64,000 nucleotides of DNA from assembly GCA_903907925.1 (NCBI GenBank), contig CAIVQB010000077.1, positions 1-64,000 of the forward strand, given 5' to 3'. The position numbers were made by a program, and so were the translations under genes. Positions 2,808-43,164 of the stretch are shown here, piece after piece. Origin of the DNA: an uncultured Verrucomicrobiota bacterium (GTDB lineage Bacteria > Verrucomicrobiota > Verrucomicrobiia > Limisphaerales > UBA9464). Positions within the stretch are counted from its first letter, which is position 1. Each line of letters opens with the position of its first letter. Under the pieces are notes generated by a model, which was not told the origin of the DNA, did no database searches, and saw only the letters and a list, made by a program, of their open reading frames with translations.

Positions 2808-2871
2808 GGAATCGTCACCCAGTAACACCCGCCCAACCTGATTTCCGACAACAAATCCGCAGTCGAGCCGT

Positions 2872-3000: not shown

Positions 3001-3017
3001 CGTTCTAGTCTTCCCGC

Positions 3018-27079: not shown

Positions 27080-28411
27080 TCAATTCAGGGCGATGCCGCG
27101 TCGCGCGAAGGTCGGCTCGTCGAGATTCTCGCCGTTGCGTTTGACCGGTTCGGTCTGGGCGAACCGGCTGACCGAGACGACATCGAACTTGAACAACGTC
27201 TGAATCGCTTTTTTGCGCTTTAATGGATTCTTGATCTGTCGTTGGGCGAGCTCGCGTTTCTGACCGTCGTTGAGGGACGGAGCGGGCGGAACAAAGAGGG
27301 GCCCGACGCGATTGCCGGGGGCTTCCACCGCATCGGATGGCATCTCGAATTGGAGCCGATCCGGTTCGGCCGGTTTCGCCGCTTCGGTTCCTGCTGCGGC
27401 AGGAGCTTCGACATGGGTTGAGTGCGGAGTCGAGCCTCCACGGGTCGCAATCACCGTCACCACCAACCGCCCCTCCAATTCCGGATCGACGGCCGCACCG
27501 GTGATCAACTGCGCGTGCTCGCACAAACGCTGGAACTGATCCTGGAGACTCTGAACTTCGTCGAATCGCAGGTCATTGCCACCGGCGACGGCGAGGAGAG
27601 CGGCGTCGGCTTCCACGAGCATTTGTCCGGCCTGGAGGAAGGGATGACGCTGGAGTCGCTCCAACGCTTCGCGGGCGCGACCGGGTCCGCGCACTTCGAC
27701 GGCTGCAAAAACACTCGCCGCGTGGCGACCGCGCAGGAGGCGTTCCAGATCGGCGAAACTGACTGGATTCAGCGCCGGCCGGTGCAAAAGCCGCCAGATG
27801 CTCGCAACACTTTGGGCGACCATGTCGTTGGCCGCGGCAAACATCTCCAGCAACGGCGTCTTGTCATCGAGCATCGTGGCGACTCCCTGATTGGGAACGC
27901 AGATCACAGCGTCCGCGGCGGAACGAAGCGCCTGAAGGCCGGCGGCGGCATTGGAACGACGGAGCGTCCCTTCGTAATCGAACGGCAACACCGCGACTCC
28001 GAGAACGAGCGCCCCAGCTTCACGCGCGATCCGGGCCAGAACGGGTCCGGCACCTCCGCCGACGCCGCCGCCGACGCCGGTGACCAGGCAGACGAGGCGG
28101 ACCCCGGCGAACAGTTCCTTCCAGCGGGCGACATCCTCCTTCGCCGCCGCCGCGCCCAGTGAAAGATCATTCCCGCATCCACCGCCCCGCGCGGCCAGTG
28201 CACCAAACGAACGCACGGCGACGGAGCCCAGCGAGCGCAGTGAGGCGGCATCGGTGTCGGCGGCAACCACCGAGGCACCCGGAATGCCGTTGCAGGCCAG
28301 GCGTTCGGCAATGGCACCGCCGGAATGCCCCATGCCAACGACGAGGAATTCGAGGGGCGTGGCCGGGGTGGGAGCCGCCGAGTCTTCGGGAGCGGAGGGT
28401 GCTGGGTTCAT
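27080..28411 (-). CDS. ftsZ: Divergent cell division protein FtsZ
   Basis: This 443-aa GTPase should form the division ring. Its place directly after ftsA supports the call, as does the C-terminal peptide NLDEPTFARRG (429-439), which matches the conserved tail that binds FtsA. The N-terminal strand is LVVGMGHSGGAIAERL and the nucleotide loop is VVAADTDAASL. The tubulin signature reads TGVGGGVGGGAGP (111-123), not the usual GGGTGTGAAP. The synergy loop reads NPVSFADL (215-222) instead of NxDFADV, so only one of the two usual aspartates is kept. Downstream, FDYEG and VPNQ are recognisable. This is more divergent than typical bacterial FtsZ and the GTPase could be altered. Confidence 0.85.
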   Translation of the reverse strand: MNPAPSAPEDSAAPTPATPLEFLVVGMGHSGGAIAERLACNGIPGASVVAADTDAASLRSLGSVAVRSFGALAARGGGCGNDLSLGAAAAKEDVARWKELFAGVRLVCLVTGVGGGVGGGAGPVLARIAREAGALVLGVAVLPFDYEGTLRRSNAAAGLQALRSAADAVICVPNQGVATMLDDKTPLLEMFAAANDMVAQSVASIWRLLHRPALNPVSFADLERLLRGRHAASVFAAVEVRGPGRAREALERLQRHPFLQAGQMLVEADAALLAVAGGNDLRFDEVQSLQDQFQRLCEHAQLITGAAVDPELEGRLVVTVIATRGGSTPHSTHVEAPAAAGTEAAKPAEPDRLQFEMPSDAVEAPGNRVGPLFVPPAPSLNDGQKRELAQRQIKNPLKRKKAIQTLFKFDVVSVSRFAQTEPVKRNGENLDEPTFARRGIALN

Positions 28412-28423
28412 GGCGCGGGGAGG

Positions 28424-29635
28424 TCAGCGACCAAACAGACTTTGCAAAGTGGCACGAAAGCCGAACCGGCTGCGGGACCGGTTCTGAAGGCGCATGGCGC
28501 CGTAACGGACGAGACCGATCGCGGTGGCGAATTCCGGATTGGCCAGGACATCGGCCGGACCGGAGACGTTGTGAGTGTGGGCCCGTCCCACCGGCAACTG
28601 GAAGACGCGGTCTACCAGCGTTTCGATGCCGCGGGTCCGGGCGCCGCCACCGCAGAGAACCACACCGGCCTGGGCGAGTCCGAAGGCGTCCGACTTCGCC
28701 AGATCCCGGGCGATCAATTCCAACGTCTCCTCGAGGCGCATCGACATGATGCGATGCATGTTTTCCAGGCTGACAATCCGCGGCGCCAATCCGGTTTCGC
28801 CAGGAACCGTGTGGGTGGTGCCCTTCACCTCCGGCTCGTACACCGCGCACCCGTGTTCGCGCTTCAATTGTTCCGCCTGATCGATGGGGATGCGGAGGCC
28901 GCAGGCGAGGTCGTTGGACACATGATCCCCGCCGACCGGCAGGACACCCGAATGGCGGAGAATGCCTCCGTGGAAGAAGGTGTATTCCGTCGCGCCGGCA
29001 CCGAGGTCGATCATGATGACCCCCTGCCGTTTTTGTTCGGGAGTGAGCACGGCGAGCGCCGAGGCGAGGCCGTTGAAGACCGGTTTCGCCACCGACACCT
29101 GCATCGACTGAACCACGCGACGGGCGGTTTCGATCCGCGCCGTGCGGCCGCGGATCACGTGCACGCTGGCGGTCAGGACACCGCCGACCAGCCCGACCGG
29201 ATTCTCGATGCCGGTCATGTCATCCACGCAATAATCCTGACGGACACTGTCGATGACCTCGTTGCCTGCCGGACAATTGAACTGCTTGGCGTTCGCCACC
29301 GCATCCAAGACATCCTCCGCGGTGATCGTTCGGTCGAAGGAAGCGATCGGGTGAACCCCCTTGCTGTCGTCGCAGAAGATGTGGTTGCCGGTGATCCCCA
29401 GATAGACCTCCTGGATCTCGACATTCGCCTGCTGCTCCGCCTCGGCCAGGGCCACCCGGATGTCCTCAGCCGCCTTGAGCGTGTCGGTGATCTCGCCCTT
29501 GCGGACTCCGCGCGAGGTGCATTGACCCAGTCCGAGGATGGTCAACTCCCCCTTGGGACCCGCCTCACCGACGGCGGCGCAGATCTTGTGGGTGCCGACT
29601 TCGAGACCGACGATGACTTGGCCGGGATCAAACAT
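28424..29635 (-). CDS. ftsA: Cell division protein FtsA
   Basis: The 403-aa actin-like protein reads VIVGLEVGTHKICAAVGEA at the N-terminal phosphate loop. The inserted 1C domain contains EVYLGITGNHI and HPIASFDRTITAEDVLDAV. The second phosphate loop is GVIMIDLGAGATEYTFF and the adenosine motif is AGVVLCGGGARTRGI. The C-terminus ends in SRFGFRATLQSLFGR, an amphipathic helix that would attach it and FtsZ to the membrane. It overlaps the ftsQ gene by 8 bp and lies 12 bp before ftsZ. Confidence 0.95.
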   Translation of the reverse strand: MFDPGQVIVGLEVGTHKICAAVGEAGPKGELTILGLGQCTSRGVRKGEITDTLKAAEDIRVALAEAEQQANVEIQEVYLGITGNHIFCDDSKGVHPIASFDRTITAEDVLDAVANAKQFNCPAGNEVIDSVRQDYCVDDMTGIENPVGLVGGVLTASVHVIRGRTARIETARRVVQSMQVSVAKPVFNGLASALAVLTPEQKRQGVIMIDLGAGATEYTFFHGGILRHSGVLPVGGDHVSNDLACGLRIPIDQAEQLKREHGCAVYEPEVKGTTHTVPGETGLAPRIVSLENMHRIMSMRLEETLELIARDLAKSDAFGLAQAGVVLCGGGARTRGIETLVDRVFQLPVGRAHTHNVSGPADVLANPEFATAIGLVRYGAMRLQNRSRSRFGFRATLQSLFGR

Positions 29636-30587
29636 GGCGGCGGAGGGGTTTGCGTTTCGTGTGAAGCGTTTTCGGAAGCGGCTCGGGCGTGGGCGCGAGG
29701 GCCTCCAGCCACTTCAACGGGGGATTCGAGCGGACACTGAGATCCAACGAACCGATCAGGCGGCCCATTCCAACCGCGCGGTCATGAATCGCCCGCCATT
29801 CGGCCAGTTGTCGTTCGAAATCATCCGGAGCCAGCGTGATCCGCGCGCCGAAATTACTCAGCACCCCGAGCACGCCGGGCACGCCGACATCCACCGAGAC
29901 AATCTCCGAAACGCCCGCCATGGCCGACGCGTCGAATCCGCCGAGGAACCGCAGCGCGGCCAGCACCAGTGGATCCTCGACCGCCTGACCCGCCGAGAAT
30001 CCGGCGATGGCCACGTGGGTCAGCATCGGAAGCGCCGCCTCGGCATCGATCACCTCGCGGGGTGCGTGTCCATCCTCGAACGGCATCAACACATGCCCGG
30101 ATTCATCCAGCAGATAAAACGCCTGCAAACCCCCGACCGGCGGCAGGAGGATGCGGGCGACCGGTGTTCGTTCCCGGACGGCGATGGTCAGCGTGCTGGG
30201 AAAGGCGATCCGCACCGTCGCCTCCTCAATCCGCGGATGACGCAACAGACGTTGCCGCATTGAAAAAATGTCGATGGTGAGAATATTGCGGCCCAGTTGG
30301 ACACCGGCCAGGCGGCGAATTTCGTCCTCGGTCAAAACTCCATCGCGGGTGACCGGGATCCGTTTCAATCCCAGGGACTCGATCCGGTACAACCAGTGTT
30401 CGCGGGCCAGGTCGAAGGTCACCCACGACACTGCGACCAGCACGCCCGCGAGAATGGCGGTCCGCAACAGGCTTCGCAGGCCACCGCGTCGTGCGCGGGG
30501 TGCGGCTTCATCGCTGGTCTCGGCGAACAGCGTGAACCCGCCATCGCGCCGCCGGTTTCGTCGTGAACGTTGGAAGAGAAAGGCCAT
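29628..30587 (-). CDS. ftsQ: Cell division protein FtsQ/DivIB
   Basis: The 319-aa product has a basic cytoplasmic N-terminus, one membrane helix (LRTAILAGVLVAVSWVTFDLA) and a periplasmic POTRA domain (LGLKRIPVTRDGVLTEDEIR, LAGVQLGRNILTIDIF, MRQRLLRHPRIEEATVRIAF). The FtsQ domain follows, including LTIAVRERTPVARI. It would join FtsB/FtsL in the divisome. The position between ddl and ftsA is canonical. Confidence 0.9.
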   Translation of the reverse strand: MAFLFQRSRRNRRRDGGFTLFAETSDEAAPRARRGGLRSLLRTAILAGVLVAVSWVTFDLAREHWLYRIESLGLKRIPVTRDGVLTEDEIRRLAGVQLGRNILTIDIFSMRQRLLRHPRIEEATVRIAFPSTLTIAVRERTPVARILLPPVGGLQAFYLLDESGHVLMPFEDGHAPREVIDAEAALPMLTHVAIAGFSAGQAVEDPLVLAALRFLGGFDASAMAGVSEIVSVDVGVPGVLGVLSNFGARITLAPDDFERQLAEWRAIHDRAVGMGRLIGSLDLSVRSNPPLKWLEALAPTPEPLPKTLHTKRKPLRRHV

Positions 30588-30593
30588 GGGGGT

Positions 30594-31508
30594 TCAGCCG
30601 GCGGCGGGACGTTCCATCGCGAGTGAAACCATCCGGTCGCACAACTCGGCGAACGACCATCCGGCGGCGGCGGCGGCCTTGGGCAGCAGGCTGGTTTCCG
30701 TCATGCCGGGAAGTGTGTTCACCTCCAGCACCACCGGATCGCCGTTGGGTCGCACCATTACGTCCACCCGCGCATAGTCGCGTCCGTCGACGGCCCGAAA
30801 CGCACCCAGCGCCGCCTCCTGGATCCGTGCCGTGACCACCGCATCAAACGGTGCCGGACACAAATACTCCGTCCGACCGGCCGTGTACTTGTTGGTGTAA
30901 TCATAGGCACCCGCCCGGGGCCGTACCTCGACCACCGGCAGCGCGGTTCCGGCGAGAATGCCAACCGTCGTCTCGCGACCCGTGATGCGCTCCTCCATCA
31001 ATACTTCGCTGTCGTACCGCATCGATTCAGCGAGGGCCGACGGGAACTGTTCCAGCGCATCGACGAATTGCAGTCCGACACTGCTGCCCTGGCGGACCGG
31101 CTTGAGAACGACTGGTGGCACCCAGGCGGCGGAAGGCCAGCCCGCGGTCGGGGAATCGAATACCACGAACCGCGCGGTAGGCACTTGAGCGTCGAGGCAG
31201 CGTTGCTTGGTCGCCACCTTGTCGAATGCCGTCCGACTCCCGGCGGCCCCAGTGCCAGTATAGGGAATTCCCATGCGGTCCAGCTCCAGTTGGACGCCGC
31301 CGTCTTCGCCGTAGGTGCCGTGAAGCGCAAGGAACACCACCTCGGTATCGGGCGGCAGTTGGAGATTGCCCGGAACGGGATCCACCTCATGAACCTGATG
31401 CCCGAGCTCCCGGAGCGCCCGAGCCACCGCGGCACCGGATCGCAACGACACCTCGCGCTCGGCGGACGGGCCGCCGCGCAACACGGTAATGATGCGGAAC
31501 CGGCTCAT
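30594..31508 (-). CDS. ddl: D-alanine--D-alanine ligase
   Basis: The 304-aa ATP-grasp ligase makes D-Ala-D-Ala for the peptidoglycan stem. It begins RIITVLRGGPSAEREVSLRS, with the family's GGxSxExEVSLxS. It continues VVFLALHGTYGEDGGVQLEL, VVLKPVRQGSSVGL, the basic KPVRQGSSVG loop, and ends with the metal-binding LEVNTLPGMTETSLLPKAA. Its start overlaps the murB stop by 4 bp. Confidence 0.95.
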   Translation of the reverse strand: MSRFRIITVLRGGPSAEREVSLRSGAAVARALRELGHQVHEVDPVPGNLQLPPDTEVVFLALHGTYGEDGGVQLELDRMGIPYTGTGAAGSRTAFDKVATKQRCLDAQVPTARFVVFDSPTAGWPSAAWVPPVVLKPVRQGSSVGLQFVDALEQFPSALAESMRYDSEVLMEERITGRETTVGILAGTALPVVEVRPRAGAYDYTNKYTAGRTEYLCPAPFDAVVTARIQEAALGAFRAVDGRDYARVDVMVRPNGDPVVLEVNTLPGMTETSLLPKAAAAAGWSFAELCDRMVSLAMERPAAG

Positions 31509-32494
31509 GGCAAATCCTCCCCGACGATTTCGACCTCGGTTTCAAGTTCGATGCCGCGTTCTTCACGCGCCCGGCTGCGAACCTGTTCGATCAACCCGAG
31601 AACATCGCGAGCCGTCGCGTGGCCCAGGTTGACGAAGAAATTGGCGTGGACATCGGACACCATCGCATCGCCAACACGCGTGCCTTTCAGCCCGAGTTCA
31701 TCAATAAGCCGGCCGGCCGGCAGCGTTGGTGTCGGATTCTTGAAGGTGCAACCGGCGCTCGGCTGATTCGGCTGTGAATCCCAGCGCTTGCGGCTGTAGG
31801 TCTCCATCCGTTCGCGGATTCCGTCGGCATCGGCGGGCGTTCCGCGCAGCAACGCTCCCACGGCAATCGAATCCCGCAGAACCGGACACGAACGGTAAAC
31901 GGCACCGACCTCGGCGGCGGGAACATCCTGAACCTCTCCAGCCCGCGTCACGTAACGGAGTCGTTCCACCACGTCGAAGGTCCACGCGTTCATCGCACCC
32001 GCGTTCATGCGCAGGGCACCGCCGAGCGATCCCGGAATTCCTTCCAAAAACTCCAGACCTGTCAGTCCGGCGCGACGGGCCTCGGTGGCGATCGCCTTGA
32101 GACGCACTCCAGCGCCGCACTGCATTAACGCGCCGTTGAATTCGATCGCGGAAAAGGCGGTATGCGCGAGCGAAAGAACCACCCCGCGGATGCCGCCGTC
32201 GCGGATCAAGAGGTTGGAACCCCGCCCCAAAACAAACACCGGCACTGACAATTGCGAGGCGAGTTCCAGCAGTGTGATCAGGGCATGCTCGGAATCGGGT
32301 TCGCTAAAAATGTCGGCCGGTCCACCCACCCGCAGCGTGGTCCGGCGGGCCAGCGGTTCGTCGCGGCGCAACACGGCTTCAAGCGGCAACGCGCCCTGAA
32401 GCTTGTGGAACAGGTCGGTCACCCGGATGGCGAGCTCGGCAGAGGCCTCGGAGGGAGTCGCCGGTTGGAACGGTGAAAGGGTAAAGGAACTCAA
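31505..32494 (-). CDS. murB: UDP-N-acetylenolpyruvoylglucosamine reductase
   Basis: The 329-aa FAD enzyme reduces the enolpyruvyl group of UDP-GlcNAc-enolpyruvate. Recognisable are TTLRVGGPADIF, GRGSNLLIRDGGIRGVVL, GLEFLEGIPGSLGGALRMNA and SAGCTFKNP. In the last motif cysteine stands where the Escherichia coli enzyme uses serine as acid; several MurB lineages share this, as far as I recall. The start is a TTG at 32494 that overlaps the murG stop as TTGA. Confidence 0.92.
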   Translation of the reverse strand: MSSFTLSPFQPATPSEASAELAIRVTDLFHKLQGALPLEAVLRRDEPLARRTTLRVGGPADIFSEPDSEHALITLLELASQLSVPVFVLGRGSNLLIRDGGIRGVVLSLAHTAFSAIEFNGALMQCGAGVRLKAIATEARRAGLTGLEFLEGIPGSLGGALRMNAGAMNAWTFDVVERLRYVTRAGEVQDVPAAEVGAVYRSCPVLRDSIAVGALLRGTPADADGIRERMETYSRKRWDSQPNQPSAGCTFKNPTPTLPAGRLIDELGLKGTRVGDAMVSDVHANFFVNLGHATARDVLGLIEQVRSRAREERGIELETEVEIVGEDLP

Positions 32495-33678
32495 GCGATG
32501 CCCTCCTTCGTGCGCCGGGCGGGCACGGTGCCCGAATTTGAAAAAGGCGTGGCACGACCCGCGCCGGCCATTCGCGATTCGACGACCGCCAGGATCCGTC
32601 CAGCAATCCGTCCGGCGGCACCCGGGGCGTCCAGCGCGGTCAATCCCTCAATCAATCCACGACGGATCGGTCCGTCCGCCAGCAGGTCGGACACCGCCCG
32701 CACGAGGTCCGCGGGGAGGGTTCCCTGTTGATCCAGCATTCGCGCGGCACCTGCCTTCACCATGGCCTCGGCGTTCACCCGCTGATGATTGTCGGTGGCC
32801 GCCGGAAACGGAATCAACACGGCGGGGAGCCGCATGGCCGCGAATTCAGCCAGCGAAGAAGCTCCGCTGCGGCTGATCACCGCTGTCGCCGCCGCTAGTG
32901 GAATCTCCATCGCGTCGTGGAAGGCCACCACCTTGACCCGGGCTCCGAACGGTGCCGCGGCCGCTTTCACCCACGACAGGTCCCGCGGACCGGTCACATG
33001 AAAAATCTGGAGCGTCGAATGGCTCGACAACAGCGGCGAGAGGGCGGCCACGGCGAGGCGGTTGACGCCCTCGGCACCCTGGCTACCTCCCATGATAACC
33101 AACACCGGATCTGCCGGCTGAAAACCCAGGGCGACGCGGGCGAGTCGGGGATCCTGCTGGACGAATCCAGAGCGGACCGGCGTTCCGGTGGCGGTGACTC
33201 GCGAATTCCGAAGACGTTCCACGGCTTCGGCAAAGCCCACGAAACACTCATTCATCCACGGGGCGAGCCAGCGGTTGGCACGGCCTGGAATGGTGTTGGA
33301 TTCGTGGAGGAAAACCGCGGCACCACGTCCCTTACCGGCGAGAGCCACCGGGACGGAGGTAAATCCGCCCATGGCCAGGACCGCCTGAACCGGTTCCGCA
33401 CGGAAACAGCGTCGGGCACCACTCCACGACCGTGCCGCCGCCGACACACTGGCGAGCAGTTGGCCACGGGTGAGACCGACCGCGGGAAGAAATTCCACCC
33501 CAAATCCCGGAGGCAGATGAGCGACCGCCCGACGATCCACGTCTTTGGTGGAAACGAAGAGCGTGACCGCGGCACCGCGTTCGAGAAGTTCCCGGCCCAC
33601 CGCGACCCCGGGGAACAAATGTCCACCCGTGCCCCCACAGGCAATGGCGATCCGCAACGGGGTGACCGGGATGCTCAT
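32491..33678 (-). CDS. murG: UDP-N-acetylglucosamine--N-acetylmuramyl-pyrophosphoryl-undecaprenol transferase
   Basis: The 395-aa GT28 glycosyltransferase adds GlcNAc to lipid I. Motifs in order are IACGGTGGHLFPGVAVGREL, LAMGGFTSVPVALAG, LHESNTIPGRANRWLA, VIMGGSQGAEGVNRLAV, ISRSGASSLAEFA and PFPAATDNHQRVNAEAM. It overlaps ftsW by 4 bp. The tail after ~370 is A/P/T-rich and not conserved. Confidence 0.94.
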   Translation of the reverse strand: MSIPVTPLRIAIACGGTGGHLFPGVAVGRELLERGAAVTLFVSTKDVDRRAVAHLPPGFGVEFLPAVGLTRGQLLASVSAAARSWSGARRCFRAEPVQAVLAMGGFTSVPVALAGKGRGAAVFLHESNTIPGRANRWLAPWMNECFVGFAEAVERLRNSRVTATGTPVRSGFVQQDPRLARVALGFQPADPVLVIMGGSQGAEGVNRLAVAALSPLLSSHSTLQIFHVTGPRDLSWVKAAAAPFGARVKVVAFHDAMEIPLAAATAVISRSGASSLAEFAAMRLPAVLIPFPAATDNHQRVNAEAMVKAGAARMLDQQGTLPADLVRAVSDLLADGPIRRGLIEGLTALDAPGAAGRIAGRILAVVESRMAGAGRATPFSNSGTVPARRTKEGIA

Positions 33679-34787
33679 TCGGGAAGTTCGGTATCCATCC
33701 GGGAGAACGGATTCCCGAACGGGCGCGTCGTCTCGATTCCAGCGACTCCGTGTCGCGCCACACTCACCAGGCAGCCGATCAATCCGAGCATCATCACCAC
33801 ACCGGTGCCGCCGCGACTGACCAACGGCAGCGGAATGCCCTTGTTGGGCAGGAGGTCAGTGACCACGCCCAGATTGAACAGGGCTTGCGCGCAAATCACG
33901 AACGTGATGCCGGCGGCCAGCAACGCGCCAAAAAGATCGGGTGCCGACTGGGTGATCCGTGCGCCACACACCAGGATGACGGCGAAGACACCCACCACGG
34001 CGAGCGTGAACGGGAGACCCAACTCCTCACCCACGACGGGGAAAATGAAATCGGTGTGATGTTCGGGGATGTTGTACTTGAAGGAACCGCGGCCGAGTCC
34101 TGCTCCATCGACTCCGCCGGCACCAAACGCATACAACCCCTGCAACACCTGATGGTAGCCATCGCTGTTCTGCTCCGGATGAAGGAAGGCGTTCACCCGT
34201 TTCATCGCGTACTCGCTGTTCAGAATGATGACGACAAACACCGTGACGCAGAGAACCGCCGGAAGCATCACCTGCCAGATCCGAACACCGGCCACCACCA
34301 TCATCAGAAACGTGACCAGGCAGAGTAGCGCAGTGGTGCCCTTGTCTGGTTCCAACAGAATAAAGACCAGCGGCAGCGCGGCGACCGAGGCCATGCCGAC
34401 CACGCCGGAAAAAAAGTGATCCATCCGGTGCTCGAACCGGGCGGCGAACCAGGCCAGGCCAACGATCAGGCCCATCTTGGCAAATTCGGACGGTTGAACA
34501 CCCCACAGCCAGCGCTGGGCTCCACCCTTGGAGCTGCCGAGCGGACTCAGCGTGAGGAGCAACAGGAGCACCATCACCGCATAGATCGGCACCGCCCAAC
34601 GTTGCAGCTGGTGGTAGTCGGTCCGGGCGGCGAGCCACAGGGTGACAAACCCGATGCCACAGGCGGCCGCCTGCGATTCGACCTGCGCCTCCCCCACCCA
34701 CAGCATCGTCCCACTGGCCAGCATCGCGAGACTCAGCACCACCAGTGCGCCGACGGCCAGCAGGAGAACGGTGATGATGCGGTTCAT
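33675..34787 (-). CDS. ftsW: SEDS-family lipid II polymerase / division protein FtsW
   Basis: The ATG at 34787 (MNRIITVLLLAVGALVVLSL) begins a 370-aa protein of about ten membrane helices; the ORF extends another 17 codons upstream but those are basic and hydrophilic. Family words are GVQPSEFAKMGLIVGLAWF, LLEPDKGTTALLC, GYHQVLQGLYAFGAGG, GLGRGSFKYNIPEHHTDFIF, AVVGEELG-type PVVGEELGLPF and PLVSRGGTGVVMM. SEDS proteins polymerise glycan strands with a cognate class B PBP, here the ftsI product. Its end overlaps murG by 4 bp. Confidence 0.93.
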   Translation of the reverse strand: MNRIITVLLLAVGALVVLSLAMLASGTMLWVGEAQVESQAAACGIGFVTLWLAARTDYHQLQRWAVPIYAVMVLLLLLTLSPLGSSKGGAQRWLWGVQPSEFAKMGLIVGLAWFAARFEHRMDHFFSGVVGMASVAALPLVFILLEPDKGTTALLCLVTFLMMVVAGVRIWQVMLPAVLCVTVFVVIILNSEYAMKRVNAFLHPEQNSDGYHQVLQGLYAFGAGGVDGAGLGRGSFKYNIPEHHTDFIFPVVGEELGLPFTLAVVGVFAVILVCGARITQSAPDLFGALLAAGITFVICAQALFNLGVVTDLLPNKGIPLPLVSRGGTGVVMMLGLIGCLVSVARHGVAGIETTRPFGNPFSRMDTELPE

Positions 34788-34853
34788 GGGAAGCTTTCGG
34801 TTCGTGGCGCGCCGGGCTGAGGTGGCCCGGCGCGCCAACGATTCGTCAGACGC

Positions 34854-35759
34854 TTATTTGGCCGGGGTCCCGCCGGTGGGCACCGTCCCGGTCGGAACCG
34901 GGGCCGCCGTCGGCACGGGGTTGGCTGCGGGAACCGAATCCGGAGTGGTTGGGGCCGTCACCGGCGCACCCTTGACTGGGAGTTTCAGTTTTTGTCCAAC
35001 CTGGATGGAATCGGAGGCGAGGTTGTTGAGGGCACGGATCGCCTTGACCGTGGTGCCGTGTTTCTTGGCGATCTTGCCGAGGTTGTCGCCACCTTTGACC
35101 CGGTAGACAAGACTGTCGCTGGAGGCCGTATCCGCCGCGGTTTCGGTCGCGCCACCGCTCTTGCCGGCCTTCGCTTCGCCCGCCGGCACTCCGGTGGATC
35201 CCGGAATTTGCAACGTCTGGTCCACCTTCAACTTCGCGAGGTTTACGTTGGGATTGGCCTCCTTGAGTGCCTTGAGGGTGATGCCGTGTTTTTTGGCCAG
35301 GATGGCGGCGATGTCGCCCTTCTGAACCTTGTACTCGGTCGCGCCGGTGGTCGCTGCGCCGGTCGAGCCCGCGCCTGCTCCGGTCCCGGCAACGTCGCCG
35401 CCCAGGTTGGCCGCCGCGCCGTTGGTGCTGACGGCACCGACCACTCCACCGAGGCCATTTCCAAGACCGCCTCCGGCGGCCATCCCGGCTGCCGGTCCGC
35501 CGGGCAGCGCGTTGGTGGCGGATCCCAGGACGGGTGCGTTGGTATCGGGCGCAACGGCACCGGTGACACCGGCCAGATCATTGGTGGCACCGGTGTCGGG
35601 AGCCTTCGCTTCCTCCTTCTTGCAGCCGAGAATCAGGAATCCGCCGAGGACGAAAACGTGGAGACCGACGATCAGGGCGGCGACCTGAAGCGATGACTTG
35701 CTCCGGGCCTGCTTTTCCAGCAGGGAGCCTTGGGGTGCTAACGGGTTGGGAGTACTCAT
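34854..35759 (-). CDS. Membrane-anchored protein with two LysM domains
   Basis: The 301-aa product has one membrane helix ([20 protein letters not shown]) followed by GCKKE, which may be a lipobox. A glycine/alanine/asparagine-rich linker follows, then two LysM domains: [25 protein letters not shown] and [25 protein letters not shown]. The end is proline/threonine-rich. LysM binds peptidoglycan, so the protein should link the cell envelope to the wall. It sits where murD normally lies, between mraY and ftsW. Its start codon overlaps the stop of a 126-codon ORF upstream. Confidence 0.85.
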
Positions 35760-36136
35760 GGTTTTTCAGCGCCGCAGAGCGGCATCGTTCGAGGAATAGG
35801 TTGGGATGAATTGATGCCGTGGTGACTCCTCAAGCCACCACGACACCAAGCTGGAAGCGCACGGAAAAAGCCGGCAATGCGGTCTCCTCCACTCGGGGAA
35901 ACCCGGACTCCTGCAGACCGGCAACGGATTGACACCGCAGCCGGAATCGAGGAGCCCGGAATTGAAAAACGTTCGCTGCCGCCGGAATCACCGCGCCCAC
36001 CGCCAACATGACGGCCAGGGATGACGCCGTCGGACCCCATTAAACCGCCGGCGGACCGCGGTGCAAGGGGCGAAACGTCCGACCGCCGGAAATGGCGTCC
36101 AGCGAGGGGGATCGGCGTAAAAATACTGCGGTTCAT
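35756..36136 (-). CDS. Hypothetical 126-aa ORF bridging mraY and the LysM gene
   Basis: The ORF begins with an ATG that overlaps the mraY stop as ATGA, and its own stop overlaps the LysM gene's start as ATGA. Both joins in one gap are unusual by chance. The predicted protein is rich in R, G, S and P (for example [27 protein letters not shown]), has no membrane helix or signal peptide, and matches nothing I recognise. It may be a real lineage-specific gene, or simply an intact frame in a 373-bp spacer. No structured RNA could be identified there either. Confidence 0.35.
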
Positions 36137-37260
36137 CGAATCTTAAGCGTGCTCAACGCCAGGACGGCGCAGAGGATTCCGGCGATGTAGAATCGCGTGA
36201 CAATCTTGGATTCCGGCCATCCTTTTTTGCGAAAATGATGGTGGAGCGGCGACATCAGGAAGATTCGCCGGCCTTCGCCGAAGCGGATCCGGGTGAATTT
36301 GAACCATCCCACCTGCAGCATGACGCTCAACGCCTCGGCCACAAACACGCCGCCGGCGATGAACAACACGAAGGGTTGATGGATGAGCACGGCCACGATG
36401 CCGAGCGCACCGCCGAGCGCCAGTGACCCGGTGTCGCCCATGAACACTTCCGCCGGATGGCAGTTGAACCACAGGAAACCCAGGCTGGCCCCGATCATCG
36501 CCCCGCAGACGACGGTGAGTTCCGACGCCCCCGCAACGTGGCTGACCAGGAGGTATTTAGCGAACACCGCATTGCCGGCGACATAAGTCATCACCAGGAA
36601 GGCCAGCGAACAGATGAGCGTACAGCCGATGGCCAGTCCGTCCATGCCATCGGTCAGATTCACAGCATTGCTGCTGCCGACAATGGTCAACACTGCCAAC
36701 AGCACCCCGACCACCGGCATCCCCACCAGCACCGGAGTTTTGAGAAACGGCAGTTCGACGTCATCGATCAGGTGCCGGGTCGACGGAAGGCGCCAAAGGT
36801 AGATGGCGATGGCGGTGGCCAGGCCGAACTGGACGTAGAGCTTGATGCGCGACGCCGCGCCCTCGGAGTTCTGCCGGGTGACCTTCAGCCAGTCGTCATA
36901 GAATCCCAGCCCGGCCAGCACGATCAGCGAGAGGACGGTCACTAGGATCAGCGGATTCCAACGCGCCCACAACAAAACCGAGACATCCAGCACCACCACG
37001 ATGAGGATGCCTCCCATGGTGGGTGTTCCCCGCTTGGCGGTGTCGGCCGCCACGGCGGCGAAATCGGACTGGCCGTCGCGGACATCCTTGGGGCGGTAAT
37101 CCTGCCGGAACTTCAACTCCCGCAGCCAGGAAATCACCCGCGGACCCCACAGCATCGACAGCAGCAACGCGGTCACCGCGGCGCCAGCAGTCCGGAAGGT
37201 GACGTACTTGAATACCGTCCACGGCGCATACGGCAACAGTTCTGACAGGCGGTACAACAT
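36133..37260 (-). CDS. mraY: Phospho-N-acetylmuramoyl-pentapeptide transferase
   Basis: The 375-aa polytopic enzyme makes lipid I from UDP-MurNAc-pentapeptide and undecaprenyl phosphate. Signatures are the acidic pair in GLGFYDDWLKVTRQNS, AVNLTDGMDGLAIGCTLI, WFNCHPAEVFMGDTGSLALG and the His motif MSPLHHHFRKKGWPESKIVT. Roughly ten membrane helices can be traced. It lies 3 bp downstream of murF. Confidence 0.95.
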   Translation of the reverse strand: MLYRLSELLPYAPWTVFKYVTFRTAGAAVTALLLSMLWGPRVISWLRELKFRQDYRPKDVRDGQSDFAAVAADTAKRGTPTMGGILIVVVLDVSVLLWARWNPLILVTVLSLIVLAGLGFYDDWLKVTRQNSEGAASRIKLYVQFGLATAIAIYLWRLPSTRHLIDDVELPFLKTPVLVGMPVVGVLLAVLTIVGSSNAVNLTDGMDGLAIGCTLICSLAFLVMTYVAGNAVFAKYLLVSHVAGASELTVVCGAMIGASLGFLWFNCHPAEVFMGDTGSLALGGALGIVAVLIHQPFVLFIAGGVFVAEALSVMLQVGWFKFTRIRFGEGRRIFLMSPLHHHFRKKGWPESKIVTRFYIAGILCAVLALSTLKIR

Positions 37261-37263
37261 GGT

Positions 37264-38682
37264 TCAGGCGGCCTTGGGCAGCGGATCACGCGAACGCAGT
37301 TCCAATTGGCGGATCAACGCTTCGAGCAACCGTTCAAGCCGGGCCGAACGGGAGGCCTTGAACACCACGGTGTCGCCGGGTTCCAGGAAATGCAGCACGG
37401 CCTCGGCGGCACTCTCCGGCGTCGCGAAGGCGGTCGCACGATTTGAACCAGCCGCCGCGGCGGTCACGGCGGCACGCGTCCCCACGGCAAACACGGCATC
37501 GATTCCGAGCCGGGCCGCGGTCCGACCCACTTCCTCGTGAGCCGAATGGGTTTCATTTCCCAGTTCCGCCATGTCGCCCAGCACCGCCACCCGCCGGCCG
37601 CCGCACGGCAGCTGCACCAGGGTCTGCAACGCCGCGGTCATCGAATCCGCATTGGCATTGTAGGTGTCGTCCAACAACCGGACGCCGCCGGCCTCGCGGA
37701 ACCGGAGCCGCTGGGTTGCGGGTGAAAAAACCGCCAGGCCGTCGCGACCGTCGCCGGGCAAAGCGCCCAGCTCGAAGGCGGCCGCCAGTCCCAGTAGCGC
37801 GTTGGCGACTGAATGACGGCCTGGCAAAGTGATGGAATACTCCCCGTTCCACGCGGAATCGGGTGCGGAAACGGAGAACACGGTCCGACCCCACTCCATG
37901 GAGCGCACGTCAGCAGTCCACTCGTTTCCGGGCCCGAACCCGGCACGGACCACCCGCGCCGCGGCACGCGAGGCCAGGTGATTCCGGAACGGACATTCGC
38001 CGTTGAGGATCAACACCCCGCCCGCATCCGCGGAGGGCAACCGTTCGGCGAGCACGCCTTCCTCGGCGGCCACGCCGGCGAGGTCGTGAAAAAATTCCAG
38101 GTGCTCGCGTCCAATGCTGGTGATCACACCCAGCCTCGGGGCGATCATGTCGACCAGCGGTCCCAGTTCACCCGGATGATTCGTCCCGGCCTCCAGGACA
38201 GCCACCTGATGACGGGACTCCAATCCCAGCAAGGTTGCGGGAACTCCGACGTCGTTGTTGAAACTGGCCTCACTCTTCAAGGTCGCAAACCGCCGCAACA
38301 GGATGGTTGCGAGAATTTCCTTGGTGGTCGTCTTGCCGTTGGACCCGCCGACACAGACCACCGGCAGCGTGAAACGTCGGCGGTAGGCGGTAGCAATCCG
38401 GCCATAGGCAGCTCGAGGATCGTCCACTACCAGCGCGGGAAGCTCCGCCGGCACTCGTTTCAGCCGATCCGCCGCCACAACCGCCGCAACCGCGCCTCGC
38501 GCCAGCACTTCGCCCAAATGATCGTGGGCATCGTGTCGCTCGCCGGCGAGCGCGACAAACAGACCGCCCGGACCCACCCGGCGCGAATCGGTCACAACAG
38601 CGGAAATCACGATGTTCATCAGCGCCGGCGGGATCGGTGACCCGCAGGCTTCGGCAAAGAATTGGAGGGGCAGCGTTTCCAT
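37264..38682 (-). CDS. murF: UDP-N-acetylmuramoyl-tripeptide--D-alanyl-D-alanine ligase
   Basis: The 472-aa Mur ligase adds D-Ala-D-Ala to the UDP-MurNAc tripeptide. The N-terminal domain has TDSRRVGPGGLFVALAGERH with DAHD. The ATP loop is VCVGGSNGKTTTKEILATIL. Also visible are EASFNNDVGVPATLLGL, VLEAGTNHPGELGPLVDMI, HSVANALLGLAAAFELGA and RLLDDTYNANADSMTAALQ. These are MurF, not MurE, features. No murE gene is present upstream. Confidence 0.94.
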   Translation of the reverse strand: METLPLQFFAEACGSPIPPALMNIVISAVVTDSRRVGPGGLFVALAGERHDAHDHLGEVLARGAVAAVVAADRLKRVPAELPALVVDDPRAAYGRIATAYRRRFTLPVVCVGGSNGKTTTKEILATILLRRFATLKSEASFNNDVGVPATLLGLESRHQVAVLEAGTNHPGELGPLVDMIAPRLGVITSIGREHLEFFHDLAGVAAEEGVLAERLPSADAGGVLILNGECPFRNHLASRAAARVVRAGFGPGNEWTADVRSMEWGRTVFSVSAPDSAWNGEYSITLPGRHSVANALLGLAAAFELGALPGDGRDGLAVFSPATQRLRFREAGGVRLLDDTYNANADSMTAALQTLVQLPCGGRRVAVLGDMAELGNETHSAHEEVGRTAARLGIDAVFAVGTRAAVTAAAAGSNRATAFATPESAAEAVLHFLEPGDTVVFKASRSARLERLLEALIRQLELRSRDPLPKAA

Positions 38683-38683
38683 T

Positions 38684-39487
38684 TCAGCGCATCTGAAAGG
38701 TGGCGTTCACCACGGCGGTGATCGTTTTTTCCGGACTGGAGGTGTCGTTGCGGCCTTCCCAGGTCGTCTCGTTCGAATACAACGGCGCTATTTGAAAAAC
38801 ACCCATCCGAGCCGACCGCAGTCCGCCCAGGCGTCGTCCGCCATGCCCCGAAATCTGTTCCGCGCGGGCCCGGGCATCCCGGGTCGCCTCACCCAACATT
38901 TCGACTTTGGCATCCGCGGAACGGGTGTAGATGAACTCGGGAACCGAGGGAGTTAGTTGAACCCCCTGTTCCAGCAACGCCACCGAGTCGCGATCCAACT
39001 GCATGACCCGGTCCACCTCGGCCGAGCGGATCTCCACCGGCTGCGACAGCTTGAAGGCGACGGTCCGTTGAACGGTGGTTTCATCCTGACCCATCCGTTG
39101 TTTGTCCTGACCCACCACCTCGGTGATGACGATCGGGGCGAAGACGGCGTTGGTCACTCCGGCGCTGGCCACGAACGCGGCGACGCGATCACGATCCGAA
39201 CGCAAACGGCGCTGGGCCTCGACCAGAGTCGGGGCCGACACGGTGTAGGACGCACGCCAGATGACGAAATCGGAGCTGACATTGCGGCGCGCCGAACCGG
39301 TGACCGTGATCGCCGCGGCATCTGCAATGCGAACCCAGGCGCGGGTCACAACCATGGCGGCCAGCACCAGGCCGCACGACAGGAACACCCCCGCCAGGAG
39401 GCCGGCGAGGTGCGGTCGACCCGGAGCAGGCACCGGCGTGAGGGCCACCGGCGGGGTCGGGGCCGGACTGGATTCGGAAGCGGACAC
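38684..39487 (-). CDS. SIMPL-domain (DUF541) protein
   Basis: The 267-aa protein has a proline-rich cytoplasmic start, one membrane helix (GLLAGVFLSCGLVLAAMVVT), and then a SIMPL/DUF541 fold: ITVTGSARRNVSSDFVIWRA, AFVASAGVTNAVFAPIVITE, LEQGVQLTPSVPEFIYT, ARARAEQISGHGGRRLGG and AVVNATFQM. The region faces the periplasm. The family has no agreed function. It sits in the slot where murE usually follows ftsI, and ends 1 bp before the murF start. Confidence 0.85.
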   Translation of the reverse strand: MSASESSPAPTPPVALTPVPAPGRPHLAGLLAGVFLSCGLVLAAMVVTRAWVRIADAAAITVTGSARRNVSSDFVIWRASYTVSAPTLVEAQRRLRSDRDRVAAFVASAGVTNAVFAPIVITEVVGQDKQRMGQDETTVQRTVAFKLSQPVEIRSAEVDRVMQLDRDSVALLEQGVQLTPSVPEFIYTRSADAKVEMLGEATRDARARAEQISGHGGRRLGGLRSARMGVFQIAPLYSNETTWEGRNDTSSPEKTITAVVNATFQMR

Positions 39488-39499
39488 GGCGGGATTGGC

Positions 39500-39586
39500 T
39501 TAGAGCATCGCCAGCAGACAGAGCAGGCAGAGCAGAGCCTTGGCGGCGAACTCCCAATTCCAGTGGAGAGCGTGGAATACGGTCAT
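39500..39586 (-). CDS. Possible 28-aa hydrophobic peptide
   Basis: An ATG at 39586 encodes MTVFHALHWNWEFAAKALLC ending in LLCLLAML. It could be a single-helix membrane peptide filling the 127-bp gap between the ftsI and SIMPL genes. There is no good ribosome-binding site (AACCTTGCC precedes the ATG), and the reading could be accidental. Confidence 0.3.
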   Translation of the reverse strand: MTVFHALHWNWEFAAKALLCLLCLLAML

Positions 39587-39614
39587 GGCAAGGTTGGGTT
39601 CGGAATTGTGGCGG

Positions 39615-41774
39615 TCACGGTTTCGAAGGCGACGCATGCGCCGCAGCAACAATCCGGCCACCCGCACTCGCGGGAAGCAGGGGCAGGACATCGGCGGTAT
39701 TCGTTCCCGCGGAAGGTTGCAGCGCGAGGTAACTGGCCATCTCCTGGCCGATGCGGGCGAACAACGGGGCGCAGGCCTTGCCTCCGTAGTAGGCCTTCCC
39801 GGCGGTGGTGGGTTCATCGGCGGTGATCACGATGCAAACCTCCGGATGTTCCGCGGGGAAAAAGCCGACGAAACTCGCGTAGAAACGGGTGACCGAATAG
39901 TGGCCGGTGGCGGGATCAATCTTCTTGGTGGTGCCGGTTTTTCCGGCGACATCGAAATCGGCGATTGCCGCCTTGGCACCGGTTCCATCTGTGACCACCC
40001 GCCGCATCGCCCGCACCATCTCATGGGCCGTCGAGCTCTGGATCACCCGCCGGACCACGCGGGGAGCGTACTCGCGGACCGTTTGATTGTTGGCGGTCAC
40101 CAGCCGGTGGACGATGCGGGGCTCCATGAGAACGCCGTCATTGGCGATCGCCGCGGCGGCCATGGCGGTCTGGATCGGGGTCGCATAAATGCCGTAGCCG
40201 AACGGCAGACTGGCCGGAGTTTCGCCATCCCAACTCGGAATGTTGCCGCGATTTTCGCCGTGAATGGGCACCTCGGTGGGGACGCCCTTTACGACGCGCC
40301 AGGAGGTTCCGGCTTCGGCGCATTCAATGCCGGTCCGCGCGGTGAATCCGAAATCGCGGATGTAACGCAGCATCGAGTTGGTGCCGAGCGCGAGCCCGAT
40401 CTTGACCGCACCAATGTTGCTGGAGTGGGCGAACGCGTCCTCCACGGTGACGGAGTTCATGTGATGTCCCTGATCATCGCTGATCGTCCGGCGGGATCCC
40501 GGCGGCTTCCATTTTCCACCCTCGCAATTGATCATTCCGTCCAGCCGGACCAATCCGGTGTCGAGCGCCGCGGAATAGGTGACGATCTTGAAGGTCGATC
40601 CCGGTTCGGCCGGTTCCACCAGTGCCCGGTTCTTCAAGGCTTCCAGGCTGGGAATGTGCCGCGAATTGGGGTTCCAGGTCGGCCGATTGGCGAGTGCCAG
40701 GATTTCACCCGTCCGGGGCCGTACCACCACCGCGGAGATGCCCTTGGGATGGAGCGTCTCCATGCCGTAGTCGAGGGTGTCCTCGACCATGGACTGGATG
40801 GTGGCGTCGATGGTAAGGACGATGTTGAGTCCGTCGGTCGGTGCGATTTCGCGCTCGCGGAGCGGCACCAGTTCGTGGCCCATGGCACGGTAGGTTTCGA
40901 CGAGACCGTGCGAACCGCGGAGTTCCCGATCGAACCGCTGTTCAATGCCGGCGGCGCCGACCACGCGGACGGGAATGCGCCCGCCGGGGATCGCCGGTTC
41001 CCAACTATTGGTGGTGTACCCCAGAATGTGGGCCGCCGCGTGTTCGAGCGGATAGGTGCGAAGTTCGATCGTCTCGGCGAATAATCCTGCGGCGCGACAT
41101 TCGGCCAGGTTGCTCAGGGCGATGGAACGCTCGAGGGCCAGAGGCTTCAACCGCTGACGCAACTGTTTCGACACCTGTATGCGTCCGGGAATGTTCCACC
41201 ACGGCACGCTTTTCTTCAGGCGGGCGCCCGCACGGAGGGCATTGGTCCAGGCCACCGAAGCCTCCCATTCCTGCCGGAACCGGTTCGTCGCCAACATCGC
41301 CTCGAACTGAACCCAGCGGTCCACCGGCAGGTTGGTGACCACTCCGTTGTCGTGCCGGACGCGAGGTCTGAAGACCACCGTGGGGATGCGAGCGGTTCCG
41401 TTGGTGACCCAGTTGGTCATCGCCTGGCGATACGCCTCGGGCTGCAGGCGTCGGAGAATTTCCGGTGAATCAATGCCAAAAATCGGAGCGGACAACCGGG
41501 CGAGCTCCGCCGAAAACGGTCCGATCTTGACCGGGTCGGCATGAACGGTGACGACGAACTGGGAGACGACGAGCGGGAAATTGTTAACGTCGAGAATGGA
41601 TCCGCGACGCGCGGGATTGACCACCTTGCGCAACGTGGCGGCGGTGGAATGGGCCTGCGGATGCGGCCGCTGAAGCGCCTGCAAAAAGACCAACCGGACC
41701 GCCAACACCGAGAAGCCGACGGAGAACAGGGCGGCAATGCCCCAAATCCTTCGGTTCTGGTGGAAGGTGTTCAT
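39615..41774 (-). CDS. ftsI: Division-type class B penicillin-binding protein (FtsI/PBP2/3-like)
   Basis: The 719-aa transpeptidase has an N-terminal membrane helix (IWGIAALFSVGFSVLAVRLV), a PBP dimerisation domain with RRGSILDVNNFPL, and ILGYTTNSWEPA. The transpeptidase domain has the active-site serine in PAEPGSTFKIVTYSAAL (about residue 392), the SxN motif in AFAHSSNIGAVKIGLALG and the KTG triad in DVAGKTGTTKKIDPATG (about 611). It crosslinks septal peptidoglycan with FtsW. No PASTA domain is present. It starts immediately after the ftsL-like gene with no gap. Confidence 0.93.
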   Translation of the reverse strand: MNTFHQNRRIWGIAALFSVGFSVLAVRLVFLQALQRPHPQAHSTAATLRKVVNPARRGSILDVNNFPLVVSQFVVTVHADPVKIGPFSAELARLSAPIFGIDSPEILRRLQPEAYRQAMTNWVTNGTARIPTVVFRPRVRHDNGVVTNLPVDRWVQFEAMLATNRFRQEWEASVAWTNALRAGARLKKSVPWWNIPGRIQVSKQLRQRLKPLALERSIALSNLAECRAAGLFAETIELRTYPLEHAAAHILGYTTNSWEPAIPGGRIPVRVVGAAGIEQRFDRELRGSHGLVETYRAMGHELVPLREREIAPTDGLNIVLTIDATIQSMVEDTLDYGMETLHPKGISAVVVRPRTGEILALANRPTWNPNSRHIPSLEALKNRALVEPAEPGSTFKIVTYSAALDTGLVRLDGMINCEGGKWKPPGSRRTISDDQGHHMNSVTVEDAFAHSSNIGAVKIGLALGTNSMLRYIRDFGFTARTGIECAEAGTSWRVVKGVPTEVPIHGENRGNIPSWDGETPASLPFGYGIYATPIQTAMAAAAIANDGVLMEPRIVHRLVTANNQTVREYAPRVVRRVIQSSTAHEMVRAMRRVVTDGTGAKAAIADFDVAGKTGTTKKIDPATGHYSVTRFYASFVGFFPAEHPEVCIVITADEPTTAGKAYYGGKACAPLFARIGQEMASYLALQPSAGTNTADVLPLLPASAGGRIVAAAHASPSKP

Positions 41775-42191
41775 TCAGCGGGAGGCCGCGGCCAGGGGAG
41801 GTTGAAACGCGCTGGAACTCCGGAAATCACTCACCCGGTTCGGAACAGTGGCAGCCGCCGCGACCGACGGCATCCGGACTGTCGGAGCCTGCACGAAGAG
41901 ACGTTGCGACGGATTGATGTTGGTCAGATCGAGATGAAATTCCTGAATCTTGAGGCGCAATTCGCCGGCGGACGACAGCCGGGTATGCAGGATCCGGCGT
42001 TGATCCAAAATGGCGGAAAGAGACTGCGCTCGGCGTTCCAATCCGCCCAATTGTTCACCCAAACGCTGGTGGGCCTTGCGCTGGAGAACGTAGCCCAGCG
42101 TCATGCCCGCCACAGACACGACGGCGAACAACACGAGTCCGAAGGTCTGCCATCGGAGAGCCTGCACGCCGCGCTTCTGGTTTTTTGCCAT
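41775..42191 (-). CDS. ftsL: FtsL-like division protein
   Basis: The 138-aa product has the layout of FtsL: a short basic cytoplasmic start (MAKNQKRGVQALRW), one membrane helix (TFGLVLFAVVSVAGMTLGYV) and a helical coiled-coil segment (LGEQLGGLERRAQSLSAILD). The tail (after ~95) is A/P/S-rich. The sequence of FtsL is weakly conserved, so the call relies on the architecture and position between rsmH and ftsI. Confidence 0.75.
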   Translation of the reverse strand: MAKNQKRGVQALRWQTFGLVLFAVVSVAGMTLGYVLQRKAHQRLGEQLGGLERRAQSLSAILDQRRILHTRLSSAGELRLKIQEFHLDLTNINPSQRLFVQAPTVRMPSVAAAATVPNRVSDFRSSSAFQPPLAAASR

Positions 42192-42214
42192 GAGTGGAGG
42201 GGTTGGAGTTGGAA

Positions 42215-43147
42215 TCAGAGCTTCACCAGCGCCCGCAATTGGGCGCTGCGCGATCGCGGATTTCGGTCCCGCTCGCTCTCCGAGGGTACGATCGGCTTCC
42301 GGGTCAGGATCTTTCCCCGGGCCGGACGCGGTTGACGCAGATGGGGGAAATCGTCCTCGCCCGGCGGCAGGTCATAGTCGCGGGCCTCTTCGCGGAAGAA
42401 TTCCTTCACCTGACGATCCTCACCGGAATGAAAGGTGATCACGGCAAGAATGCCACCCGGGGCGAGCAAATCCCAAGCGGCTTGCAGCCCGGAATTCAGC
42501 GCCGCCTTCTCATCATTGACCACGATGCGGAGCGCCTGAAAAACAAGGGTGGCGGGGTCCTTGGCCCGGCCGGCACGGGGATTCGCGCGGGCCACGCAGG
42601 CGGCCAGTTGGCGGGTGGTTTCAAACGGGCGCATCTTCCGGTCCCGTTCCAGAGCACGGGCGATCCGGCGTCCCTGGCTCTCCCCGTTGTCCCAAAACAA
42701 CTGGGTGAGATCCTCGACCGGCCAGGTGTTGACCACCGCGGCCGCGGTCAGCGGTGTTGACGGCGACATACGCATGTCGAGCGGACCTTCCTGCTGGAAA
42801 CTGAAACCCCTCATGGCGGTGTCCAACTGGTGCGAACTGACCCCGAGATCGAGCACGGCTCCGGCGCAGCTCCCCGCGGGAACAAACGCACCGGCGTCCG
42901 CAAAATTCGTCATCCGCAGCTCATAACGCCCCGCGAAGGGCGCCAATCGCTCACGGGCTGCCGCGATGGCGTCCGGGTCCGCGTCGCACGCGAACAGGAA
43001 GCCCTTCGGCCCACTCGCCTTCAGAATCGCCACGCTGTGCCCAGCTCCACCGCACGTTCCGTCGAAGTAGCTCGCGCCGTCCTTCGGCTGGAGCACTGTC
43101 AGGACTTCCTCCAGCAAGACCGTGTGATGGATGAAGCCGGAGCTCAC
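42215..43147 (-). CDS. rsmH: 16S rRNA (cytosine(1402)-N4)-methyltransferase
   Basis: The GTG at 43147 is chosen because the conserved start HHTVLLEEVLTVLQPKDGAS follows within eight residues; a longer frame to 43219 overlaps the neighbouring gene. The 310-aa class I methyltransferase has YFDGTCGGAGHSVAIL, LDLGVSSHQLDTAMRGFSF, GPLDMRMSP, and the late ILAVITFHSGEDRQVKEFF. In the family this last motif is SFHSLEDRxVK, so L is replaced by G here. It modifies C1402 of 16S rRNA. Confidence 0.94.
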   Translation of the reverse strand: MSSGFIHHTVLLEEVLTVLQPKDGASYFDGTCGGAGHSVAILKASGPKGFLFACDADPDAIAAARERLAPFAGRYELRMTNFADAGAFVPAGSCAGAVLDLGVSSHQLDTAMRGFSFQQEGPLDMRMSPSTPLTAAAVVNTWPVEDLTQLFWDNGESQGRRIARALERDRKMRPFETTRQLAACVARANPRAGRAKDPATLVFQALRIVVNDEKAALNSGLQAAWDLLAPGGILAVITFHSGEDRQVKEFFREEARDYDLPPGEDDFPHLRQPRPARGKILTRKPIVPSESERDRNPRSRSAQLRALVKL

Positions 43148-43164
43148 GCATGGGCCAACCCGGT

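Follow-up and report, generated by a model that had tools for sequence, protein, structure and literature searches.

The FtsZ protein encoded within a 64,000-nucleotide stretch of DNA from an uncultured Verrucomicrobiota bacterium (contig CAIVQB010000077.1; hereafter the window) has lost one of the two acidic residues of its catalytic T7 loop and both ligands of the T7 potassium site, and it is the only tubulin-family protein found in its genome. We give about an even chance to the reading that this is a working, FtsA-anchored FtsZ with slow GTP hydrolysis, a dismantled potassium site and a single catalytic acid. The altered loops are common to the genus and evolve under purifying selection, and in the aligned sequences a T7 loop with one acid is a phylum-wide pattern of which the window FtsZ is one striking case.

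The window FtsZ and its altered loops

The product carries both FtsZ domains, Pfam Tubulin (PF00091, 84.3 bits) and FtsZ_C (PF12327, 46.9 bits), and its gene sits in an ordinary dcw cluster after ftsQ and ftsA (Table 1). It resembles bacterial FtsZ (TIGR00065; PF00091 plus PF12327; E. coli and S. aureus) in its fold, its dcw position beside ftsA, the phosphate-loop glycines, E138, R142 and N165 (E. coli numbering throughout, unless stated) and the C-terminal tail, and it differs in the replacement of N24, Q47, T108, T110, N207 and D209 and in its score against the NCBIfam ftsZ equivalog TIGR00065, 191.5 bits against a cut-off of 295.2. Despite this score we regard it as an FtsZ orthologue because of its position, its tail and its relatives, and by sequence it is a true FtsZ that belongs to a phylum-wide trend. 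The top PDB matches listed by Foldseek for the predicted structure were FtsZ structures (best E 1.1e-18); the underlying AlphaFold model, built from four sequences, was of low confidence, with a mean pLDDT of 48.6 and residues 211-218 below 50, and it therefore served solely for confirmation of the fold. Among the cluster genes, ddl, murB and murG were named by eye from their translations, and ftsW, the LysM protein, mraY, the Mur ligase, the SIMPL protein, ftsI and mraW were scanned. The SIMPL-domain protein (38684-39487, - strand) and the LysM protein (34854-35759, - strand) both lie among division and wall genes. An Rfam scan of the window gave no family at threshold.

Table 1. Features of the window ftsZ gene, its product and the surrounding cluster (window coordinates; residue changes in E. 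coli numbering)
Feature	Coordinates	Strand	Basis and remarks
ftsZ, 443 aa	27080..28411	-	Pfam Tubulin and FtsZ_C; single PF00091 place in genome
T1 loop, residues 26-33, GMGHSGGA	28313..28336	-	Alignment; G20, G21, N24 to His, Ser, Ala
T2 loop, residues 52-56, DTDAA	28244..28258	-	Alignment; N43 to Asp, D45 kept, Q47 to Ala
T4 loop, residues 114-120, GGGVGGG	28052..28072	-	Translation; canonical GGGTGTG, T108 to Val, T110 to Gly
T5/H5, residues 143-152, PFDYEGTLRR	27956..27985	-	Alignment; E138 and R142 equivalents kept
T7 loop, residues 215-222, NPVSFADL	27746..27769	-	Alignment; N207 to Pro, D209 to Ser, D212 kept
Glu at position 214 (window residue 223)	27743..27745	-	Alignment; characteristic of the window's family
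C-terminal FtsA-binding peptide (putative), residues 430-438, LDEPTFARR	27098..27124	-	Translation; motif match
ftsA, canonical	28424..29635	-	Directly upstream of ftsZ; TIGR01174 328.1 bits, cut-off 175.85
ftsQ (POTRA)	29628..30587	-	Profile match
Remaining dcw cluster	30594..43219	-	ddl, murB, murG, ftsW, LysM protein, mraY, Mur ligase, SIMPL protein, ftsI, mraW

Residue equivalences were taken from a HMMER alignment to P. aeruginosa FtsZ (2vaw, 1ofu), ungapped over T7, and from a MAFFT alignment with E. coli FtsZ, and the two agree. An earlier note on this DNA had described GGGVGGG in place of GGGTGTG, a T7 loop short of one acid and an FtsA-binding tail that was kept, and all three descriptions hold: the T4 change is borne out by translation, window residues P216, S218 and D221 correspond to N207, D209 and D212, so that position 209 is Ser and D212 alone is left of the T7 pair, and the FtsA-binding peptide is intact, its binding being putative and assigned by motif. 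Beyond that note, the alignments add the changes of N207 to Pro, of Q47 to Ala and of G20, G21 and N24 to His, Ser and Ala; the equivalents of D45, E138, R142, N165 and D212 are kept. Loss of the Asp at position 187 was considered as a lost nucleotide contact and dropped, the column being variable in control FtsZs too. The signature PS00227, [SAG]GGTG[SAT]G as quoted in PMC1845146, does not match GGGVGGG. It is matched by none of the eight genus rows, by 20 of 41 others in the family, 16 of 37 others in the order, 64 of 114 others in the class and 15 of 64 others in the phylum.

The altered site is conserved in the genus

T4 reads GGG[V/I]GGG in all eight genomes of the genus (Val or Ile at 108, Gly at 110), and Gly110 with Leu or Phe at 108 recurs in three further rows outside it. 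T7 has Pro207 and Asp212 in 8/8, with either Ser (four) or Gly (four) at 209, and R142 and E138 are kept in every member. Over the 28 genus pairs the dN/dS of the FtsZ core was 0.05-0.27, and that of the GTP loops was lower than that of the core in all 27 pairs for which it was computable. Although dS exceeds 1 in many pairs, the two closest (dS 0.14 and 0.17) gave core values of 0.11 and 0.07 and loop values of 0.026 and 0.040. The low dN/dS of the changed loops indicates that the altered site is maintained by purifying selection rather than decaying.

Divergence of FtsZ relative to FtsA

In five bacteria of four other phyla, the identity of the FtsZ core (0.46-0.70) exceeded that of FtsA (0.26-0.44) in 10/10 pairs. 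The window proteins are equally distant from their E. coli counterparts (0.33 for FtsZ and 0.33 for FtsA). For pairs drawn from different families of the order (the window's family excluded), mean identity was 0.44 for FtsZ and 0.60 for FtsA, and FtsZ was the more alike in just 3 of 622; for different families of the class the means lay closer, at 0.31 and 0.36, with FtsZ the more alike in 1596 of 5953. In comparisons with E. coli the two proteins gave about equal identities. The usual rank of FtsZ as the better conserved of the two is lost here. Hou et al. 2008 stated, with data not shown, that ftsZ is accelerated in M. infernorum with ftsA and ftsK unaffected, and cited the same for Prosthecobacter ftsZ (PMC2474590); the identities given here extend that statement on Methylacidiphilum to the phylum.

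The FtsA peptide motif was present in 240 of 264 phylum rows and in all 37 from the rest of the order. The 24 misses comprise 16 variant tails in one family (f35, mostly DLDxPP), one variant in f59 and seven frames that end without the peptide. A class family, f39 (L153-L160, L238, L239), has T4 in a degraded form such as GLAGATG and a T7 that can scarcely be aligned, with the FtsA peptide present in 10/10 rows; in one of its members (L159) ftsA adjoins ftsZ. By sequence, no proteins in the set are stronger candidates for an FtsZ without GTPase activity than those of f39.

A T7 loop with one acid recurs across the phylum

FtsZ was collected from 263 of the 265 PF00091-matched genomes among 269 examined, giving 264 rows in 84 family groups; the matched genomes G132 and G171 were left out and G199 was counted twice. 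The genomes G068, G114, G133 and G163 gave no PF00091 match. In the last of these, which is 99% complete, a close relative's protein located a degenerate ftsZ piece (L318; 54% identity over query residues 161-404, in a frame of 248 aa). Dropped before counting were loci that we take to be BtubAB-like (L081-L083, L289 and L290, with tubulin matches of 177-199 bits), second tubulins (L061, L281-L287) and duplicate rows (L032-L034, L070-L072, L074, L075, L078, L080, L186, L288). Two same-family relatives, L026 (G034) and L040 (G031), have stop-free frames of ~840 aa around ftsZ.

A T7 acid was scored as D or E at 209 or 212, in 261 rows, the other three having no letters at one of these positions. 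Both acids were present in 55 rows, 209 alone in 100, 212 alone in 98 and neither in eight, so that 198 rows have exactly one acid and 253 at least one. The change had first been taken as particular to the window gene; it is one instance of a pattern that runs through the phylum. If the two positions varied independently, 90.9 rows with both and 43.9 with none would be expected, against the 55 and eight observed among these related sequences. Two-acid loops were found in 0/8 rows of the genus, 0/40 of the rest of the family, 15/37 of the order, 24/113 of the class and 16/63 of the phylum; the G055 protein, from the window's order, has such a loop in the form NVDFNDL. By family group, many of them single genomes, both acids were never present in 53, always in 24 and mixed in seven. 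Six groups (f39, f51, f73, f76, f77, f82) are very divergent, with unsure T7 columns, and leaving them out gave 235 rows with 53 both, 84 D209 only, 94 D212 only and four none. D209 is absent in 4/4 rows of the group to which the BtubAB-like genomes belong. The potassium ligands N207 and Q47 were both lost in 151 of 262 rows and both present in 48, with one present in 63.

By comparison, all 21 control FtsZs have both D209 and D212, and GGGTGTG is present in all 20 with that stretch; N207 was found in 19/21, Q47 in 17/20 and N24 in 19/20 with the stretch concerned. The controls span Pseudomonadota, Actinomycetota, Bacillota, Bacteroidota, Spirochaetota and haloarchaea and form a convenience sample, since the 21 loci were hand-picked from 60 listed of 117 matching records in a plasmid collection, plasmid paralogues included.

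Trees were built with the T7 columns left out, one with FastTree (264 rows including E. coli; L059 was too short) and one with IQ-TREE from 90 family-by-state representatives, in which 16 of 87 inner branches were strongly supported. The minimum number of changes was 23 at position 209 and 21 at position 212 on the first tree, and 15 and 17 on the second. Over 14 supported independent pairs, 209 and 212 went the other way in 5.4 and the same way in 0.2, which agrees in direction with the counts but is marginal in sign tests (median p 0.0625, or 0.125 when the two positions swap roles; the tree of 90 representatives gave 0.25 and 0.375). For N207 and Q47, 12 supported pairs gave 4.8 the same way and 0.4 the other way (median p 0.125), and the tendency in the phylum is towards joint loss of these two ligands. 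No such tendency was seen on the tree for D209 and N207 (same way 2.1, other way 2.4).

The 27 positions identical in 21 controls (20 control loci and E. coli) were ranked by their family-weighted retention in the phylum, with the six divergent groups excluded. D209 (0.54) and D212 (0.66) are the sixth and seventh least kept, and P134, E138 and G105-G107 are retained at 0.95-1.00. Relaxation extends beyond the catalytic acids, since five positions, G228, A181, T110, G149 and A70, are kept less than they are; G228, A181 and G149 lie outside the active-site residues chosen for checking. Our reading of these sequences is that in the phylum GTP binding would be mostly kept and the chemistry of hydrolysis relaxed.

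A proposed slow GTPase, or possibly a static scaffold

The attacking water in S. aureus FtsZ is placed by a swing of D210, and D213 shapes its surroundings; R143 assists, and a potassium ion in T7 is bound by N208 together with Q48 (PMC8936486). Mutation Q48A lowers the GTPase ~6-fold and stabilizes filaments, and N208L, D210N and D213N each abolish assembly; the T7 aspartates and N208/Q48 are described there as conserved across species, and E. coli FtsZ mutated at these places is reported to be inactive in vivo (PMC8936486). The window FtsZ is a natural equivalent of Q48A, with the additional loss of N208 (to Pro) and D210 (to Ser), and keeps the D213 and R143 equivalents. It is like the Q48A mutant in the absent T2 potassium ligand and unlike it in that the mutant keeps N208, D210 and D213 (PMC8936486). 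This match to characterized mutants lends good support to the suggestion in the earlier note that hydrolysis or polymer dynamics may differ.

We infer that the window protein, as the cell's only FtsZ, would still build the division ring, tethered to the membrane by FtsA through the conserved C-terminal peptide. GTP would still be bound through the phosphate-loop glycines and the E138, R142 and N165 equivalents, although the changes in T1, where N24 and two glycines are lost, make this predicted binding less sure. The hydrolysis site at the filament interface would be stripped down to a single T7 acid, D212, with the potassium site gone along with Q47 and N207, and the expected outcome is slow, potassium-independent GTP hydrolysis and more stable filaments with slow turnover. 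A division role is in keeping with Verrucomicrobium spinosum, a species open to targeted mutagenesis in which ftsZ is essential (PMC12283558), so that a divergent verrucomicrobial FtsZ does function in division. Because the single S. aureus mutants fail to assemble (PMC8936486), compensation must exist in the natural one-acid FtsZs, and Glu214 in the window's family and Asp211 in other lineages are candidates for it. A search of the open-access literature for viable FtsZ mutants with reduced GTPase yielded, in the text accessible, no viability data for T7 mutants. Two sets of counts run against this reading: eight of 261 rows, two of them in the window's family, are without either acid, and among the controls Q47 is absent in 3/20 and N207 in 2/21.

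A somewhat unlikely alternative, though the strongest of those considered, is that the protein is dead as a GTPase and binds GTP or nothing, forming static FtsA-tethered polymers whose turnover would depend on FtsA, septal wall synthesis or protein turnover. It would fit the abolished assembly of D210N and N208L in S. aureus (PMC8936486), the changed T1 residues, the two family members without any T7 acid (G014, G020) and family f39, where the peptide outlasts recognizable T4 and T7 loops. Retention of one or more T7 acids in the great majority of rows is unexpected for a dead site, however, and the constancy of R142 and E138 in the genus and the purifying selection on the loops also argue against this alternative. 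The two acid-free members, L047 (G014) and L050 (G020), read PIGIGTM and PLGLGTL at T7 and have an intact FtsA tail.

Possible replacement of the lost acid

Hydrolysis might instead be near normal if the missing acid were replaced nearby, by Glu214 in the window's family or by Asp211 in lineages with D209 changed to Gly, which we consider improbable. The counts are suggestive: Glu occupies 214 in 43 of 48 window-family rows with a letter there, and neither 211 nor 214 is acidic in any of the 55 two-acid rows, whereas 211 is acidic in 34 and 214 in 14 of the 98 D212-only rows, and in nine and 29, respectively, of the 100 D209-only rows. None of the three independent-pair tests made on the tree gave an association (median p 1), with few changes to draw on, four for an acid at 214 and 12 at 211. 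Position 214 is two residues beyond D212, presumably within helix H8, where its side chain may point away from the active site, and this also counts against replacement. A relocated acid as the general compensation was rejected for want of support from the independent pairs.

Search for a second tubulin

The earlier note proposed that a second tubulin-like protein might assist and called for a search for a second ftsZ or BtubAB. None was found in the window's genome, a 96%-complete assembly in 148 contigs, in which PF00091 matched one place and Tubulin_2 none, and a helper tubulin for the window FtsZ was accordingly rejected. Exactly one PF00091 match was likewise found in 57 of the 58 genomes of one set, the window's included. 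More than one match occurred in 12 of the 269 genomes: nine have a second match (G019, G199, G231, G235, G239, G241, G258, G259, G261), which in three cases falls below the cut-off and in two exceeds it only with neighbouring pieces, and three have several strong tubulin matches each (G183, G188, G202). Such genomes are what can be said for a mixed filament in which a second protein donates the missing acid, and given the search of the window's own genome we rate this as very improbable. Among the second proteins, L061 (G019, 1854-3329, + strand), from a relative in the window's family, has 492 aa, the motif SLGGGYGAGAG and a Pfam Tubulin match of 69.1 bits, and lies on a different contig from the ftsZ of that genome. 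Loci L281-L287 (G241, G231, G239, G235, G258, G259, G261) are second frames of ~364-381 aa with a GGGTG motif; the two scanned, L284 and L285, score 30-31 bits against PF00091, under its cut-off of 33, with no other Pfam family at E 0.001.

Error in an assembly of so many contigs, or decay of a pseudogene, is of negligible probability and already refuted by the relatives, because the clade alignment that the earlier note had asked for places the changes in the seven other genus members as well, dN/dS is low, and frame and tail are intact.

Relation to known systems

The window FtsZ resembles the divergent FtsZs of V. spinosum, Prosthecobacter and Methylacidiphilum in being fast-evolving with the dcw cluster retained; compared at T4 alone, V. 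spinosum has GGGTGSG where the window has GGGVGGG. The long branch of V. spinosum FtsZ (PMC1845146) and the place of verrucomicrobial FtsZ among "the most divergent groups" (PMC9871819) have been reported, and in the accessible text of these two papers and of PMC2474590 we found no discussion of the T7 acids or the potassium site. Nor did a search of the open-access literature turn up any account of a lost T7 catalytic acid in Verrucomicrobiota. The divergence and fast evolution of verrucomicrobial FtsZ were thus already known, and the active-site pattern may be new within the open-access literature.

A natural precedent for an interface short of an acid is provided by alpha/beta-tubulin, in which one interface is without the catalytic acid (K254 of beta-tubulin against E254 of alpha-tubulin) and the protein still polymerizes, with the partner subunit supplying catalysis. 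The window FtsZ differs in that it was the only such protein found, and it keeps the acid equivalent to E254 (D212) and loses the other.

The repeated loss of one T7 aspartate, with the other usually kept, offers natural proteins in which to test how much GTP hydrolysis the ring needs, and it hints at how division without FtsZ may have arisen in neighbouring phyla. As a tentative extension, possible rather than probable, the Verrucomicrobiota ring may be independent of fast GTP hydrolysis and treadmilling, its single FtsZ drifting from a GTP motor to an FtsA-tethered scaffold and resembling an intermediate through which FtsZ could have been lost in the sister lineages Planctomycetota and Chlamydiota. 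L047 and L050 are suited to asking whether any T7 acid is needed at all.
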